Virus record (IMG/VR): IMGVR_UViG_3300044624_003061
Location: 1-33,698 of that record
Length of the DNA stretch: 33,698 bases
Strand: one strand, 5' to 3'
Source of the DNA: a virus
Shown here: in pieces, positions 10,828 through 19,031 of the stretch
Numbering within the stretch: position 1 is the stretch's first letter
Layout of the letters: each line of letters begins with the position of its first letter
Translations under genes and position numbers: made by a program
The notes under the pieces: model-generated
Database searches by the model: none
Told to the model about the DNA's origin: nothing
The model's input: only the letters and a program-made list of their open reading frames with translations

Positions 10828-12004
10828 GGATATAGGTTCGGGAAGAACCTTCTCCGACAAGCGTGAACATGCCGGTTTGAACTAGCTCTTGAATGCAAGA
10901 GTTCAAGTGCTGCGGCGCTACGTCTTGAAGCAGCTTGCGTTTAAGCGTAAGCTCTGAGAGGCCCTTCGGGTATTCTAGCTTCGCCCAAGACCATGCGTTC
11001 TGCAGCGCGCCGATCAGCGGGTTTGTCCCGAAGTGCTCGAATGCGCCCGCGGCAGATGCTTCGGAACCAAGCAGCAGCTCCTTTGCACGTTCCGCATGTG
11101 CGAGAGTAATCTCCTTACTTGAAGACTCACTTGCGGAAATAATCATCGCCAGCTTCGTAAGGTGGAACCAGCGCCGGGGGATATACTCCGCCATCTTTGC
11201 TTCCGACGGTATCGGCTTGATGCCTTCATCAATCCAGGTCTGGAACGCGCGCCCTGCATCTGCTGAGAACGTAAACGCGCCGGACAGGTTATGAATGTCC
11301 CGAAGATCAAAAAGCAGCGAAGCGTAATCCGGCGCTTCCCGCTGAAGCGGCACGCCATCAGCATCGAACAGCTTCGGCAGCCGAACCTCATCTGAATAAA
11401 TAATGTTCAGCCGTGCGGTAAAGCCAAGTCCGATCGCGGCGTTGCCGAAGTTTTCCGCCAGCGTCTTCGGGGTAATCCCGCCGATCATTGTAAGGCAAAG
11501 ATTTTCAATCTTGTCCTCATCGCGGGAAAGCGTCTGGTAGCTCCACTGCGACGCGCAATCATAGAAGTCCGTCAGAAGGATCGTGAAGTCTTTGTCGTTC
11601 GGGCGGACAAGCGTTGAAAGCTCCGAGATGAAAGCCGCGTACGCGCACTGCTTGTAGAACGCATCATGTGGAAGGGAGAACATTCGGTAGCTAAGCGAAA
11701 GGTTCTTGATGAAGCGTTCTGCGGTGCAGCGTGCTGGGGAAAGAAAAACATTCTCACCAAGCTGCGGAAGAAGATCCCGCGCAGGGGAAATAGAAATGCT
11801 TTTCCCAATGCCCGGCGGGCCAACGAGCGCCACGAAGAGATTCGGAAAGATCCTTGTGGAATTAAGATCAATCCAGCACTTCCGTTGAAGAGCAGAGCTT
11901 ACTGTTGCAAGGGCAGTCCACCGACGGTAGATCTCTGGGGCATTAGTCTTACTTCCCAGCGATGTGAAGCTTTCGATCCAAGAACGATGTTGGCGCGGGA
12001 GCAT
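10814..12004 (-). CDS. DUF3987-type P-loop helicase/primase-like ATPase
   Basis: 396 residues. N-terminal motif APEIYRRWTALATVSSALQRKCW then a strand PNLFVALV leading to Walker A GPPGIGKS (62-69). An acidic Walker B-like site is at AAFISELSTL (E128), a sensor-like strand at MIGGITP (173-179) and an Arg at 198 (FTARLNIIYSDE). This architecture is typical of the DUF3987 family found as replicative helicase or helicase-loader proteins in phages and plasmids. The C-terminal 70 residues look like a winged helix. It starts 56 bases inside the polymerase gene, so translation is probably coupled. Inferred to unwind DNA for the adjacent polymerase. Confidence 0.7.
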   Translation of the reverse strand: MLPRQHRSWIESFTSLGSKTNAPEIYRRWTALATVSSALQRKCWIDLNSTRIFPNLFVALVGPPGIGKSISISPARDLLPQLGENVFLSPARCTAERFIKNLSLSYRMFSLPHDAFYKQCAYAAFISELSTLVRPNDKDFTILLTDFYDCASQWSYQTLSRDEDKIENLCLTMIGGITPKTLAENFGNAAIGLGFTARLNIIYSDEVRLPKLFDADGVPLQREAPDYASLLFDLRDIHNLSGAFTFSADAGRAFQTWIDEGIKPIPSEAKMAEYIPRRWFHLTKLAMIISASESSSKEITLAHAERAKELLLGSEASAAGAFEHFGTNPLIGALQNAWSWAKLEYPKGLSELTLKRKLLQDVAPQHLNSCIQELVQTGMFTLVGEGSSRTYIPKVQ

Positions 12005-13505
12005 CTCGTGTATCAGAGCCTTTCCACTTCATAAGTCCGTGGGGATTTTCTTTCGAGTGGAACTTCCCCCAATTCCATCCGACGGCGGCTTCAGTGTTGA
12101 TTATGCATTCTCTGCCGTGGATGGTAACGGGGACTTTAAGAAGCTCTGCAACCTTTGGGATAAGCCAGGACTCGTCTTCGGGGCGGTATTGAAACTTGAT
12201 GGAGTCATGAACCTGAGTAAGCAGTTGTATTGGTCCAGCATCGCGCACGAAAGAGTCAAGGTTTTTCCAGACATTGTAAAAGCCTAGGTTAAGGATATCG
12301 CCGATGGAAGACTGCGGCGAGTAAGCAATCGCACTCTTTACCGTGTCGTTATCCCAAGGGCGGCCTGGGAAGAAGCACCGCCGACCAAGCGGAGTTGTAA
12401 TGCTTCGGTCTTTCGCGAGCGCCAGCCGCACGGAGTTCTGCCATTGGCGGATCTCTGGAAACGCTTTGAAGTAAGCGTGCTGGAAAGACTCTGCGCCTTC
12501 CCGCGGGATCTTGAGATGCATCGAAAGCACCGCAGGCGATCCGCCGTAGTTGCTTCCGTGGCCTCCCCGCTTCGCCATATCGCGGTAGGAGAAATGCCGG
12601 TAGAACGGCTGTTCCGCGATCTTGCGAGGTTCATTGGTTCCTGGGGGAAATCTATCGGGCCAGACGAGCATTGTTGGTGTAGTATGTAGATCGCTTGAAA
12701 GGCAAGCGCGTAGGTAATTGTCGCCCCAAAGGAGTGCCAAATACGCGACAAGCTTTGACTCCGCCTGCTCAAGATCGAATTGCGCGAACTTCAAACCTGC
12801 GTCAGGAACAAAGACTCGGCGCATCTCATCAGAGATATTCTGTAGGTTTGTCCCGCCTCCGAAGGCGGACTCGTTGCTTGACCAGCGACCTGAAAGCGTG
12901 CCCGCGACTTGATACGAGCAGTGCATCCGGTTAGAACCTTGCGACGCAAGCAGCACCTGGATTTGCTTATCGCAATCGCGGATTGAAAGAATAAGATCGC
13001 AGAACGGCTTTGCCTTGGGAAGCTTCTGAAGCTTTTCCAGCGCCTCTCGGTTCGTCGTGATCGTTTCTTCTTTAGTCTGCCGGTTGAAGTTTTTGATTGC
13101 CGGGATTGCAAGGTGCTCGTAGAAGAGCGCTTGAAGCTGCTGCGGGGAGTTCGGATTGATCCCGAAGTGTTTCTTGTGCTTCGGATCGAAGTATGGCTCG
13201 AGCCCAAGACCTTCAGTCGTCAAGCGGAAGAACGTCTGTTCGCATCGCGCACGCTCTTCGCGCAGATCAGCTAGCAACGAAAGCACACGATTAGAGTCAA
13301 GCCGCACGCCACGGTTCATCAGCGTGAACGCAGGCCCTTGCATCGTGCGAGACATGTCGTAGGCGAAGCCTGCTTCGGGGATCTTCGGGGCAAGCTTCTC
13401 AAAGACTTCTAAAGTGATGCAGCAATCGAGCGCGTTATACGCCCAATACTGCTGCATCGGGTTCAGCTTGCTTACGTCGAGAGACGCCGATTCAAGAACT
13501 CGCAT
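11949..13505 (-). CDS. Family A DNA polymerase, polymerase half with only Exo III motif
   Basis: 518 residues. Motif A is FAQFDLEQAE (D244, E249). Motif B is RDMAKRGGHGSNYGG (R308, K312, Y320). Motif C is QVHDSI (D434); the usual Glu after the catalytic Asp is Ser here. The N-terminus begins abruptly with QYWAYNALDCCITLE, which is the third motif (Y23, D27) of a 3'-5' exonuclease domain. Exo I and II are missing here but present at the end of the gene at 14069-15094, so the proofreading domain is split over two genes. Start is a TAATG overlap with the upstream gene. It should copy phage DNA in the cytoplasm with the helicase that follows. Confidence 0.9.
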   Translation of the reverse strand: MRVLESASLDVSKLNPMQQYWAYNALDCCITLEVFEKLAPKIPEAGFAYDMSRTMQGPAFTLMNRGVRLDSNRVLSLLADLREERARCEQTFFRLTTEGLGLEPYFDPKHKKHFGINPNSPQQLQALFYEHLAIPAIKNFNRQTKEETITTNREALEKLQKLPKAKPFCDLILSIRDCDKQIQVLLASQGSNRMHCSYQVAGTLSGRWSSNESAFGGGTNLQNISDEMRRVFVPDAGLKFAQFDLEQAESKLVAYLALLWGDNYLRACLSSDLHTTPTMLVWPDRFPPGTNEPRKIAEQPFYRHFSYRDMAKRGGHGSNYGGSPAVLSMHLKIPREGAESFQHAYFKAFPEIRQWQNSVRLALAKDRSITTPLGRRCFFPGRPWDNDTVKSAIAYSPQSSIGDILNLGFYNVWKNLDSFVRDAGPIQLLTQVHDSIKFQYRPEDESWLIPKVAELLKVPVTIHGRECIINTEAAVGWNWGKFHSKENPHGLMKWKGSDTRDAPAPTSFLDRKLHIAGK

Positions 13506-13834
13506 TATTTATAGATGGTCCTGCTAACGGCTTTGACTTGCCGATACTTTGCCCAGCGCCAAGCGAGTTGCATTCCCGGCGACATTCCGAAGTCCACGTA
13601 GAACGCGACAAGATCAGCGCGCTCGATCATGCGCTTGTTGACTTCGAGTCCTTCGGTGCGCTGCTCTTCGTCTTCTTCGTAGAGCGCTTCCGTCCAGGCT
13701 AGGATCGCGTGCGAAGCCCAAGGAATCTCATTCCGCGCAAGCGCGTCCCGAATACACGCGCGAAGATACTTCTTCGCTTTCTCTCCACCGCCCAGGCCAG
13801 CCCAGGGGCTTTCAACTACAACTAGGTTTGTCAT
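13505..13834 (-). CDS. DUF7768-like (deoxyribosyltransferase-like) protein
   Basis: 109 residues. The pattern VVVESPWAG, YLRACIRDALARNEIPWASH, an acidic-R-x-x-G-L step, then ADLVAFYVDFGMSPGMQLAW matches small Rossmann-like proteins related to nucleoside 2-deoxyribosyltransferases and often found in phages. No substrate is known from the sequence. It lies, with the next small gene, between the two halves of the split polymerase; start ATGA, end TAATG, so it is translationally coupled on both sides. Confidence 0.7.
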   Translation of the reverse strand: MTNLVVVESPWAGLGGGEKAKKYLRACIRDALARNEIPWASHAILAWTEALYEEDEEQRTEGLEVNKRMIERADLVAFYVDFGMSPGMQLAWRWAKYRQVKAVSRTIYK

Positions 13835-14067
13835 TCTGTCGCGAGCGCCTCTTCGATACCATCAGGAAGGGACTTGATATTCGGAAGCGCGGCCTGCGCA
13901 ATCCGAAGATACGTAGTCAAAGGAAGCGACAGCATGACGCTCCAATGGGAGGAGATCATATCTGCGAAGCGCTCGTGCACTTCAATAACCGTTCTTCCAT
14001 TCCACTGCGGATGATTCTTAATCAGATACGCGCGGAAGTGTCCGGTGTCGATCACAAGCTGCTTCAT
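13831..14067 (-). CDS. Hypothetical protein in the split polymerase locus (78 aa)
   Basis: ATG 14067 lies one base after the TGA of the UDG-like/exonuclease gene, with AAAAGG 9-10 bases upstream inside that gene; this is better than the longer frame starting at 14142. The protein is a mixed alpha/beta chain (KQLVIDTGHFRAYLI, TVIEVHERFADMISSHW) with no motif I recognise. It is not an intein, homing nuclease or exonuclease fragment by eye. Ends in an ATGA overlap with the DUF7768-like gene. Confidence 0.65.
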   Translation of the reverse strand: MKQLVIDTGHFRAYLIKNHPQWNGRTVIEVHERFADMISSHWSVMLSLPLTTYLRIAQAALPNIKSLPDGIEEALATE

Positions 14068-14068
14068 G

Positions 14069-15094
14069 TCATTCATCCCTTTTGAGGTCGTGGGTGTCAC
14101 CGCCACGGACACGCCAACGTTTCCAAGCCCTGTCATTGGCATAGATTGATCCTAAGAAGTCCAGCCCTTTCTGCAAAGCCGGATAAAGCGAGTGGTGGAG
14201 GAGCATCGTATCGTGCAGGAAGTTTACCACGGGGATTTGATACTTAAAGAGATATTGCACGTCATAGAGGCCGTTCTGCGCGATTTTTATCGCAGGCGAA
14301 GCGCAGATCTTCCTTACGCACTTGTAGGCGAATACCTCGTCTTCTTGGCTCCAGTAGTTTTCATTCCCGAACCAGAAGGGAATAACGAAGGACTCTTCCC
14401 GGTTCGGCGCGAAGCCGATGCAGGTGATTTGCTTCGCGCGAGTCTCGATATCGAACGCAAGAAACTCTTCCGCGCAAAGCCGTTCAGTCCAAAACTCCAT
14501 ATCGCGCCGAGTCGGTTCGATGTAGATTTTTCGGTTGATAAGATCTGCGAGAGGGGACTCAGCTTCGCGGACAGTCTTAAGGAAGTCCGCTACAACTGAA
14601 GGGCGCCATTCGTAATTTGCGAGCACGCCATTGATCGCGTAGGTCGGAATGACTTTTGTTGTCTTGTAGAAGTGCAGCGCGCCGCGGAGCTTGCCGATGC
14701 CGGAGACTCCGCAAAGCGACGCAAGCGGAATATTCCCAAGCGCCACGATCACATTCGGAGCGCACTTCGCAATCGTATTTGCAAGGCGCTCAAGCGCGGG
14801 CTGCACCAGCTTCGGATCAGCTACACCCTTCTTGCAAGGGATCGCACGCCAGGGGCGGAGCAAATCTACCGAAGCCTTGATGCTCTTTCGGTCAATTGCC
14901 CAGGCATTGATATCGCCATTTGGCGGGCGAGTCGTAAAAATAGAAGTGATCTCAACGTTGCTACGCGAAAGCCCCACGTCGGCAAGGATACTATCGAGTT
15001 CCTTGCCCGGCGCGGAGCCCATGCTTAGAAGAGTCCCCTGCCGAAGATCGGCCTCGGCAGGGAAGTCCACGACAAGAAGGATCTTAGCTGTCAT
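14069..15094 (-). CDS. Fusion: uracil-DNA-glycosylase-like domain + Exo I/II half of 3'-5' exonuclease
   Basis: 341 residues. Residues 1-180 follow the family 4/5 UDG plan as seen in phages: LLVVDFPAE, GKELDSILADVGLSRSNVEITS, RPPNGD, NVIVALGNIPLASLCG, GKLRG, VIPTY. The catalytic HP motif expected after PTY is replaced (PTYAINGVL), so glycosylase activity is doubtful. Residues about 205-320 are a DnaQ-like exonuclease: Exo I FLAFDIET (D215, E217), Exo II IAQNGLYDVQYL (N274, D278). The gene stops after the loop WKRWRV (324-329); the missing Exo III motif opens the polymerase gene 564 bases further on. UDG-exonuclease-polymerase fusions are known in phages; here the chain is cut. Confidence 0.8.
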   Translation of the reverse strand: MTAKILLVVDFPAEADLRQGTLLSMGSAPGKELDSILADVGLSRSNVEITSIFTTRPPNGDINAWAIDRKSIKASVDLLRPWRAIPCKKGVADPKLVQPALERLANTIAKCAPNVIVALGNIPLASLCGVSGIGKLRGALHFYKTTKVIPTYAINGVLANYEWRPSVVADFLKTVREAESPLADLINRKIYIEPTRRDMEFWTERLCAEEFLAFDIETRAKQITCIGFAPNREESFVIPFWFGNENYWSQEDEVFAYKCVRKICASPAIKIAQNGLYDVQYLFKYQIPVVNFLHDTMLLHHSLYPALQKGLDFLGSIYANDRAWKRWRVRGGDTHDLKRDE

Positions 15095-15284
15095 TCGCGT
15101 CGAGCTTATTAATTATCTTTTGCAGATATACCGCGAAGTCTAAGGCTTCTTCTTTTGCGTGCTGAAGCCACGCGCGGAGTGCAAGCGGACTGTCTGCAAC
15201 CGAAATGCCATACTTGAGCATACCCGCTTTTGCACGGGCGTCAAGCTCTGTTTGAAGCTGCGCCGTAATTGGATCAGTCGGCAT
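15084..15284 (-). CDS. MazG-like nucleotide pyrophosphohydrolase-type small protein
   Basis: 66 residues. Motif KYG (24-26), then WLQHAKEEALDFAVYLQKII, resembles the single-helix-pair core of small phage MazG-like/dNTP pyrophosphohydrolase proteins (KYG...HxxEExxDAxxYL). Here the usual E-D-A is E-D-F. Its start overlaps the end of the methyltransferase gene and its end overlaps the UDG-like gene, placing it in the replication operon. It may trim unusual nucleotides or affect host alarmones; activity not certain. Confidence 0.65.
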   Translation of the reverse strand: MPTDPITAQLQTELDARAKAGMLKYGISVADSPLALRAWLQHAKEEALDFAVYLQKIINKLDANDS

Positions 15285-16644
15285 CAGATTTCTCCAGTTG
15301 CTTGTTCACGTAGTCAACGTGCTGCTCTTGCACATCGAAGCCCAGGCCAAGAGCAGCGCCGAGGTTCTTCGCAACGCGAAGCGCTGTTCCGCTGCCGCAA
15401 GTCGGATCGAGAATTCGAGTCGTCGGATCGACTACCATCTCAAGGAAGTGCGCCAGCATCGGCGCGGGCTTTTCCGAAAGGTGATATTCGCCGGTCGAGT
15501 TTGCCGTCGGGCCGGAGAAGCTTGCAGCCTTTACCTTCACGATCCGGTTGTCTCCGCGAGAGGCAAAGACCGCCATCTCATATGTGCGCCGCGGCCAGCG
15601 CCGAACATCAGGCGCGATACCTGCGTTGTCGCTCTTGTGCCAGATCAGCGGGAACTCGCTTACAGCCCAGCCGTAATGCGCGAAGCGTGAAGCCAGCTTT
15701 CCGTAGTTTCGCGGCGTGAGCCAGAAGATGCAATGCGCCGCATCAGCAATGAAGCGATCCTGGTTATCGAAAAAAGCCCTGCAAAGCTTGTCAAAAAGCT
15801 CCGGCGAGTCCGGGTATCGCTTGTCGATCGTGTCCCAGCGCACGCCGGAGTTTTGCAGCGGCGCCTTGTCCATGTTGAGTCCGTAAGGGAAATCGCAATG
15901 GATGAGGTTGAAACGCATTCCGATATAGTTGGGCGCCCACTCGAGGAAGTCCTGGGCTACGGCACGGAAGGGGCGGGGTGCCGACATAGGGCGGGGCGCG
16001 GCAGGGAAGGGCGTGGGCGGCGCCGTGGTGCCGGGGGGTGCTACGGGTGCGGGCGGCGCGGGAAGCCCTAGGGCGGCGGCTACGGCGGCTATCGGGGGCG
16101 GTGCAGTAGGAGTCTCTCCCGCTCGCAACATTTCAAAAGCTGCAGAAGTCTTCCGCTGCACAACCGTCTGATACATCTGATAGGCAGAAGACCAAGAAGG
16201 TGCTTTTGCAAGATCAGAATTTACAAGTAGCGCTTCCGCAACGGTAATCATCCGGCTGACCGTCTGGCCGGGAAGACCAAGAGCCTTACCTACGGCTTCG
16301 TTCGGGGCTTTCAGCGTCTGCGCGTATTTCGCAACAGCGGCGACTTCTTCTTGCCACTCCAGCTGCTTCCGCCGAATGTTTTCTTCAAGCTCGATAAGGA
16401 CCAGCTCGGAGTCAGAAAGATCCGACTTGAAAACTGCGTCAATAGAAGGCCAGCCAAGCTTCTTTGCAGCAGTGAGGCGACGTTCACCTGCGATAAGGGT
16501 GAAGCGGCCTTCGGCTTCTGCGACGACAATCGGCGTGATCTGCCCAATCGAAGACGCAAGGCTATTCGCAAGAGAGTTGATATCGCCAAGGTCTTTCCGC
16601 TGGCGCTCGGGTGGAACGTCGATCAGCTCGATAGAGATTAGCAC
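15274..16644 (-). CDS. ParB-type N-terminal domain fused to DNA methyltransferase
   Basis: 456 residues from a GTG start with AAGG 8 bases upstream. Residues 1-100 are a ParB/sulfiredoxin-like nuclease or NTP-binding domain (IAGERRLTAAKKLGW, 51-65, and ELEENIRRKQL). An HTH follows (about 116-139, EAVGKALGLPGQTVSRMI). A Pro/Ala linker (180-225) leads to a beta-class amino-methyltransferase: motif IV IHCDFPYG (251-255, DFPY rather than DPPY) and motif I LDPTCGSGT (413-420). Probably methylates adenine or cytosine in phage DNA, with the ParB/HTH part setting target choice. Whether the DFPY variant is active cannot be told. Overlaps the MazG-like gene. Confidence 0.85.
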   Translation of the reverse strand: MLISIELIDVPPERQRKDLGDINSLANSLASSIGQITPIVVAEAEGRFTLIAGERRLTAAKKLGWPSIDAVFKSDLSDSELVLIELEENIRRKQLEWQEEVAAVAKYAQTLKAPNEAVGKALGLPGQTVSRMITVAEALLVNSDLAKAPSWSSAYQMYQTVVQRKTSAAFEMLRAGETPTAPPPIAAVAAALGLPAPPAPVAPPGTTAPPTPFPAAPRPMSAPRPFRAVAQDFLEWAPNYIGMRFNLIHCDFPYGLNMDKAPLQNSGVRWDTIDKRYPDSPELFDKLCRAFFDNQDRFIADAAHCIFWLTPRNYGKLASRFAHYGWAVSEFPLIWHKSDNAGIAPDVRRWPRRTYEMAVFASRGDNRIVKVKAASFSGPTANSTGEYHLSEKPAPMLAHFLEMVVDPTTRILDPTCGSGTALRVAKNLGAALGLGFDVQEQHVDYVNKQLEKSDAD

Positions 16645-18947: not shown

Positions 18948-19031
18948 TGGTGCCCGCTGTCGGACTCGAACCGACACTCCGAAGGAAGCGGAGCTTAAAT
19001 CCGCTGCGTCTGCCAATTTCGCCAAGCGGGC
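18948..19031 (-). tRNA. tRNA-Leu(UAA), CCA encoded
   Basis: An 84-base class II tRNA on the minus strand. Acceptor stem GCCCGCT pairs fully with AGCGGGC, followed by A73 and an encoded CCA (18950-18948). D stem GCG/CGC, anticodon stem GCGGA/TCCGC with loop TTTAAGC (anticodon UAA), a short variable arm (TCC-TTC-GGA) and T stem GTCGG/CCGAC around TTCGAGT. It sits 6 bases after the stop of the 19038-19265 gene and 18 bases before the nuclease gene. It would read UUA (and UUG by wobble). Confidence 0.95.

Follow-up and report, generated by a model that had tools for sequence, protein, structure and literature searches.

Proofreading exonuclease residues of a phage family A DNA polymerase are divided between two genes

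Introduction

In the bacterial Pol III core, proofreading is carried out by a separate epsilon (DnaQ) exonuclease, with the whole exonuclease domain in one protein. The phage locus described here is similar in that proofreading would come from another polypeptide, but differs in that the exonuclease site itself is divided over two proteins. Its closest relatives of known architecture are phage fusions of a uracil-DNA glycosylase (UDG)-like domain, an exonuclease and PolA, such as those of MW202489, Microcystis phage Mel-JY34 (PP438425) and Desulfofustis phage OP947158, with the phiLo polymerase (9QHS) as a solved relative. These fusions share the domain order, the profile family (phrog_17) and the five exonuclease residues with the split locus, yet they are single polypeptides, lack its KRDE tail and have a shorter stretch ahead of Exo III.

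Split polymerases as such are known. OM43 phages MEP401 and MEP402 (PMC10580990) and Vibrio phage VS-ABTNL-3 have PolA spread over two open reading frames (ORFs) that are separated by a small unknown gene; in contrast to the present case, the cut falls within the polymerase domain and the exonuclease domain is complete in the first ORF. Aeromonas phages 25 and 44RR also encode a polymerase as two polypeptides, gp43A and gp43B, which are reported to co-purify with polymerase activity (PMC2988022); they differ in belonging to family B, and their split is associated with a seg homing endonuclease or with an insert that is not translated. The nearest cultured counterpart is Caulobacter phage Kuura, whose genes 026 and 029 (OQ067476) have the same split in the same order with two small genes between. 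The upstream one is annotated there as 'hypothetical protein', and the part of the Kuura paper text available to us (PMC9959647) mentions a DNA polymerase and not the split. Our literature search found no published split polymerase in which the cut separates Exo II from Exo III.

Results

The source locus is a window of 33,698 nucleotides (IMG/VR virus record IMGVR_UViG_3300044624_003061, positions 1 to 33,698), in which a four-gene cluster occupies 11949-15094 on the minus strand. The first gene (half1; 14069..15094, 341 aa) encodes a UDG-like domain followed by the exonuclease core with Exo I and Exo II, and the last (half2; 11949..13505, 518 aa) encodes Exo III and a family A DNA polymerase. 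Between them lie interposed gene 1 (13831..14067) and interposed gene 2 (13505..13834, 109 aa), all on the same strand. The initial annotation described the former as an unknown 78-residue protein; a mechanical ORF list starts it at an ATG further upstream and makes it 103 aa long, and this longer ORF had no family match. The latter, described as DUF7768-like, does match this nucleoside-deoxyribosyltransferase-like family (PF24963, E 1.2e-16). The tight coupling that had been noted is likewise present in the sequence, where the junctions read, 5' to 3' along the cluster, TGA-c-ATG (a 1-base gap), an ATGA overlap and a TAATG overlap. An assembly error at these junctions had been raised as a concern, and none is seen in contigs that four further metagenomes yielded for this phage, all of which align with 0 gaps. 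Two of them span all of 11949-15094 (98.9% and 97.6% identity), the third covers 13033-15094 (99.2%) and the fourth 11949-13955 (98.6%).

Pfam profile searches identified a UDG domain in half1 of the window (PF03167, E 7e-10), as in all 40 diverse split half1 proteins compared. The catalytic motifs of family 4 uracil-DNA glycosylase are GE.PG and HP; the window protein departs from both, with D10 in place of E and A153 in place of H (loss of the motif B His), while the relatives mostly keep these residues (E in 36/40, H in 33/40). The fold is that of family 4, matching 1ui1 with a Z score of 18.1 and an rmsd of 1.8 over 151 residues, and the TIGR00758 score is 46.5 bits against a cut-off of 125.3. 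The exonuclease profile DNA_pol_A_exo1 (PF01612) gives half1 a sub-threshold match (16.5 bits, cut-off 23.6) which stops at profile position 125 of 173; just 27 of the 40 half1 proteins reach an E-value of 0.01. At an abutting locus, L035, the match continues through a TAG stop to profile position 173. Half2 matches the polymerase family (DNA_pol_A PF00476, E 7.6e-37), and its motif A and motif C aspartates, D244 and D434, are invariant in 40/40.

The motif assignments of the initial annotation were borne out at residue level. Exo I (D215, E217) and Exo II (N274, D278) close the UDG-like gene (14261..14452, minus strand), Exo III (Y23 to D27) lies near the start of half2 (13425..13439, minus strand), and each of these six residues is invariant in the 40 split relatives. 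Thus the family A exonuclease residues (Exo I D/E, Exo II D, Exo III Y/D) are all five kept in 40/40, divided over two proteins. Alignment with intact UDG-exonuclease-PolA fusions, as had been proposed, found the same five in 28/28 fused rows. Purifying selection acts on the two halves alike: in a set of 17 pairs, each half gave dN/dS values of about 0.02 to 0.2 wherever these could be computed; three pairs lacked a value for at least one half.

Two traits are specific to the split form. Half1 ends in a K-R/K-D/E-D/E tail (DLKRDE in the window; 14072..14089, minus strand). Among 93 clade-A loci, 80 have K at -4 and 85 have D or E at -2. This conserved tail is predicted to be disordered (pLDDT under 50), both alone and in the joined model described below; in the AlphaFold model of half1 (pLDDT 88.6) the disordered residues are 324-341. 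Kuura half1 departs from the tail motif, ending in EFKQGN. Half2, whose fold alignment was made with fused relatives as anchors, carries an extra N-terminal strand where the linker of the fused relatives is shorter. The corresponding element of the window is MRVLESA (13485..13505, minus strand), its counterpart being a beta strand in the L266 model.

As a proxy for the assembled enzyme we used not the window's own pair but the abutting pair L266, joined by translating the stop as Q and reading on through 8 intergenic codons. The read-through model (pLDDT 95.2, pTM 0.92) matches Klenow 1kfs_A with a Z score of 31.4 and an rmsd of 4.0 over 554 residues (model 175-825). The joined pair is thus predicted to fold like an intact Klenow-like enzyme, a result that speaks for the fit of the pieces and not for their meeting.

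The same cut recurs in 100 non-redundant loci including that of Kuura, a set derived from 159 rows by leaving out 21 in which the Exo III pattern was unmatched and then removing redundant rows. Across the redundant set of 162 split loci, half1 is always upstream of half2 on the same strand, and no protein with exonuclease and polymerase in one chain was found in the window or the other loci. A fused form was also absent among the best 80 of 555 and the best 80 of 537 relatives, a search with patterns from the query family and not a census. Gaps between the halves in the 100 loci range from -4 to 1797 nt. In 15 loci the halves abut (at most 30 nt), five of these with ATGA overlaps and five with 1-nt overlaps. 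The split is clade-wide (ultrafast bootstrap 100, SH-aLRT 99) and apparently arose at least twice, the second time in another lineage: an approximately unbiased (AU) test, framed after a quick tree had hinted at two clades, favours two lineages with p = 5e-5 on a tree in which the PolA rows L188 and L195 were counted as fused and L201 was left out.

The interposed genes are very varied, with 142 called ORFs in 92 sequence clusters. We scanned 116 of the proteins against Pfam (114 of the 142 ORFs, plus the 103-aa ORF of the window and a corrected L009 frame; those left out were mostly short). Deoxyribosyltransferase-like families recur among them (17 matches to DUF7768, 13 to DUF1937 and 2 to Nuc_deoxyrib_tr), along with 8 matches to DUF4406, probably their kin. 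Because the halves abut in 15 of 100 loci, we regard the interposed genes as passengers and not the cause of the split.

Discussion

We consider it highly likely that this locus encodes a two-subunit proofreading phage DNA polymerase whose exonuclease site would be completed by assembly: two separately made proteins very probably must join to build one proofreading site. Subunit 1, with the UDG-like domain and the Exo I/II core, and subunit 2, in which the Exo III helix runs on into the polymerase, would be expressed from one operon, in which stop and start codons of neighbouring genes often overlap, and together would form an enzyme resembling Klenow. With its Tyr and Asp, the Exo III helix in subunit 2 would complete a two-metal exonuclease site whose other acidic residues lie in subunit 1, and subunit 2 by itself would presumably be an exonuclease-deficient polymerase. 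The initial annotation had offered two alternatives, a working split enzyme or an ancestral gene opened by insertion. The former gains from about 100 divergent lineages, gapless loci among them, with the five residues kept and low dN/dS; insertion as the cause does not stand. The view that inserted genes recently disrupted the locus, or that the assembly is faulty, suggested by the two genes in the window gap, is refuted by the gapless contigs of other assemblies, the clade-wide split and the close kin L304 and L307, whose proteins are 76% identical and cut identically with gaps of -4 and 901 nt; we give it practically no credence.

Could the halves be joined before acting, by RNA splicing or a split intein, as in a fractured gene? 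There are precedents, since an intein splits the PolB of jumbo phage MIJ3, where an HNH gene lies in the gap (PMC6892783), and the OM43 phage authors suspected an intron in their split PolA (PMC10580990). For the present loci this is very improbable. Spliced halves, a concern of the initial annotation, were checked at the sequence level, and nothing reached the Rfam gathering score for an intron in the window and 7 other loci. The window gap has no homing endonuclease gene, and the homing-type HNH_3 occurs in just one of the 116 interposed proteins. Beyond the conserved exonuclease there are only about 16 residues at the half1 end and about 22 at the half2 start, too few for intein halves, and the -4 or -1 nt overlap in 10 of 100 loci leaves no sequence for splicing. 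A somewhat less remote reading, though still unlikely, is that the proteins no longer assemble, half1 keeping only a vestige of its exonuclease and acting alone as a UDG-like or uracil-binding protein, and half2 being a non-proofreading polymerase. Split proteins are free to diverge, and viral PolA enzymes in one in vitro study are reported to have had no detectable exonuclease (PMC9069017). However, invariant Exo I, II and III residues across deep divergence and low dN/dS in both halves argue against it, as does the fact that half2 retains the Exo III helix, a part with no evident role unless half1 is present. Half1 was also found alone only where the contig ends (12 loci, each ending within 733 nt of half1). 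Nor did the phages prove to hold the second intact exonuclease that had been considered: the DnaQ-like RNase_T (PF00929) is absent from all 30 phage records searched, and PF01612 occurs in 23 of them, never more than once per record.

An extension of the two-subunit reading rather than a denial of it is that half1 is chiefly a regulatory subunit, a reader of uracil or modified bases that switches proofreading on and off, with the nucleoside-metabolism genes of the gap tied to it. We hold this possible but doubtful. The universal UDG domain, the recurrent deoxyribosyltransferase-like families and the conserved though disordered tail are in its favour, whereas the interposed genes are missing in 15 of 100 loci and very varied elsewhere, and the motif B His is lost in the window and kept in 33 of 40 relatives. 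Equally tentative is the idea that proofreading by assembly evolved twice, the polymerase being exonuclease-deficient until the UDG/exonuclease subunit supplies what the site lacks, such that subunit ratio or state may set fidelity and the disordered K-R-D-E tail may act as a docking or control handle.

Proofreading is usually ascribed to a single folded exonuclease domain, while here the active site is shared between two genes. This divided site spans a large, old lineage of uncultured bacterial viruses and apparently a second lineage. The 'hypothetical protein' label on Kuura half1 implies that such polymerases may be mistaken for non-proofreading ones. With Kuura in culture, it can be tested what allows a cut in the loop joining Exo II to Exo III, and gain or loss of proofreading by subunit assembly would be directly testable in a replicative polymerase.

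Organization of the divided polymerase locus

The window (33,698 bases, an IMG/VR virus record) encodes on its minus strand, in transcription order, half1 (UDG-like domain with Exo I and Exo II; 14069–15094, 341 aa), a gene of 78 aa (13831–14067), a DUF7768 gene (13505–13834) and half2 (Exo III and family A polymerase; 11949–13505, 518 aa). The initial annotation described a proofreading domain split over two genes with two others between them, and the gene anatomy, junctions and profile matches bear this out; the window sequence also confirms its 1-base gap (TGA-c-ATG), ATGA and TAATG as the three successive junctions from half1 through half2. In Pfam, half1 matches UDG (PF03167) and, weakly, the start of DNA_pol_A_exo1 (PF01612; 16.5 bits versus a cut-off of 23.6), and half2 matches DNA_pol_A (PF00476). 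Because a single PHROG profile, phrog_17 ‘DNA polymerase’, covers both half1 (profile 480–798) and half2 (801–1234), the two are neighbouring pieces of one known enzyme. Glycosylase activity of the UDG-like domain appears doubtful in the window, given that A153 replaces the motif B His and D10 stands in place of E, both of which most relatives retain. Upstream of the polymerase operon lies a ParB N-terminal domain fused to an N6/N4 DNA methylase (15274–16644), and similar-looking frames sit upstream of half1 in loci L009 and L010. The window also holds a tRNA gene (18951–19031, minus strand; Rfam RF00005, 54.6 bits).

Distribution and gap content of split loci

The cultured Caulobacter phage Kuura (PMC9959647) has the identical split, but two different small genes fill its gap. 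When viral contigs were profile-scanned with four half1 proteins, 73 of the best 80 of 555 loci were split, seven had half1 alone at a contig end, and none was fused. Scans seeded with the odd member L094 and the bacterial-genome locus L181 listed 80 further best matches, with 75 split, five partial (one of them, L335, a weak match at best) and again none fused. Among the best matches listed for fused-protein queries, all 80 loci were continuous across Exo II–III. A set of 80 loci from bacterial and archaeal genome assemblies comprised 75 fused PolA, four split and one partial; all these scans cover best matches and their counts are not a census. Across all sets, the 162 split loci (a redundant count that includes copies of the window's phage) have both halves on the same strand with half1 always upstream, and in each of the 12 half1-only loci the contig ends ≤733 nt from half1. 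The split is old and maintained.

Gap length ranges from -4 to 1797 nt in 100 non-redundant split loci, with 15 at ≤30 nt, five showing the ATGA overlap and five a 1-nt overlap; locus L304 (overlap -4) and locus L307 (901 nt gap) encode proteins 76% identical. The 142 interposed ORFs form 92 sequence clusters, and Pfam matches among 116 interposed proteins include DUF7768 (17), DUF1937 (13), DUF4406 (8), Nuc_deoxyrib_tr (2) and HNH_3 (1). Since gap lengths and gap proteins vary in this way, the cut is constant while the passenger genes change. Deoxyribosyltransferase-like families of several kinds (DUF7768, DUF1937, DUF4406, Nuc_deoxyrib_tr) recur in these gaps.

Split forms fall into two clades in a tree carefully built from 47 polymerase parts. 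The window clade has 24 rows (ultrafast bootstrap/SH-aLRT 100/99); the L181 clade, with six, is sister to a fused Desulfofustis phage enzyme (100/97). A single grouping of both was rejected by an AU test framed after a quick tree (p = 4.8e-5). Two independent splits are the simplest reading, with the direction, splitting or re-fusion, not readable from counts.

Known work and other interruptions

We found no published split that separates Exo II from Exo III in the open-access papers searched, subscription papers lying mostly outside the search. Published work describes PolA split within the polymerase domain (PMC10580990), a DnaJ part between domains of a single protein in HMO-2011-type phages (PMC9038755), jumbo phages with a separate exonuclease and split Pol III (PMC7824862), gp43A/B co-purifying with activity (PMC2988022) and PolB with a split intein (PMC6892783); further papers on known work are PMC12195039, PMC9069017 and PMC6302109. 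Unlike the window, OM43 phage MEP401 and Vibrio phage VS-ABTNL-3 (MF497422) have PolA cut elsewhere, in the latter inside the polymerase domain after ..NLQNLPKGDG; a gene of ~184 aa lies between the parts with tight overlaps, an arrangement similar to that of OM43 phages MEP401/402. In L115 and L161, which belong to the fused clade, the open frame is interrupted at a different point, after the UDG domain and ahead of the exonuclease domain. One fused UDG-exo-PolA (L182:5935-9201) carries a long insert after ..KRITHG, beginning CLLPEAEVLTPGGW and intein-like in appearance, and half2 of L094, L264, L293 and L314 has long inserts in the polymerase domain, with two profile pieces per long ORF.

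Predicted structure and probable retained function

Modelled alone, half1 of the window reached pLDDT 88.6, with disorder at residues 324–341; it matched UDG 1ui1 (Z 18.1), and its exonuclease part (184–331) matched apPol 9qu8 (Z 11.8, 136 residues). As a proxy for the assembled enzyme we used L266, a locus with abutting halves, reading through its TGA. Klenow 1kfs_A and M. smegmatis Pol1 6vdd both aligned end to end with this model (pLDDT 95.2, pTM 0.92). For 1kfs_A, model residues 175–825 pair with 324–928 at Z 31.4 and rmsd 4.0 over 554 residues; for 6vdd, Z is 32.7 and rmsd 3.4 over 536 residues. So in the model the cut sits in a loop and the pieces, while tethered, fit as in the intact enzyme.

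Some ends are peculiar to the split proteins. In 93 loci from the window's clade, half1 has a basic-acidic C-terminal tail (K at -4 in 80, D/E at -2 in 85, D/E at -1 in 72), and half2 mostly starts 20–26 residues ahead of the Exo III Tyr, often with M-(K/R)-I-I-x-T; the linker is shorter in fused relatives than in split forms. The half2 element forms a strand at 346–349 of the L266 model and the half1 tail is disordered there. A tail both conserved and disordered suggests a possible docking motif.

Residues D215, E217, N274 and D278 (half1) and Y23 and D27 (half2), as well as polymerase residues D244 and D434 (half2), are each unchanged in 40/40 diverse split proteins, and fused relatives retain the five exonuclease residues (28/28). 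Estimated dN/dS is ~0.02–0.2 for both halves (17 pairs; values absent in 3). An intact exonuclease elsewhere would speak against a divided enzyme, and no RNase_T (PF00929) was detected in 30 phage records (control positive in 10/14 genomes). PF01612 occurs once in each of 23 of these records, and in the two compared by coordinates, the window and the record carrying locus L035, its single place is half1; in L035 the match continues through the stop codon up to the profile end. The divided exonuclease thus looks functional from its sequence, and the annotation's working split enzyme, well supported by the conserved residues, dN/dS and recurrence, is very probably the correct reading. Kuura would make an experiment on the split enzyme simple.
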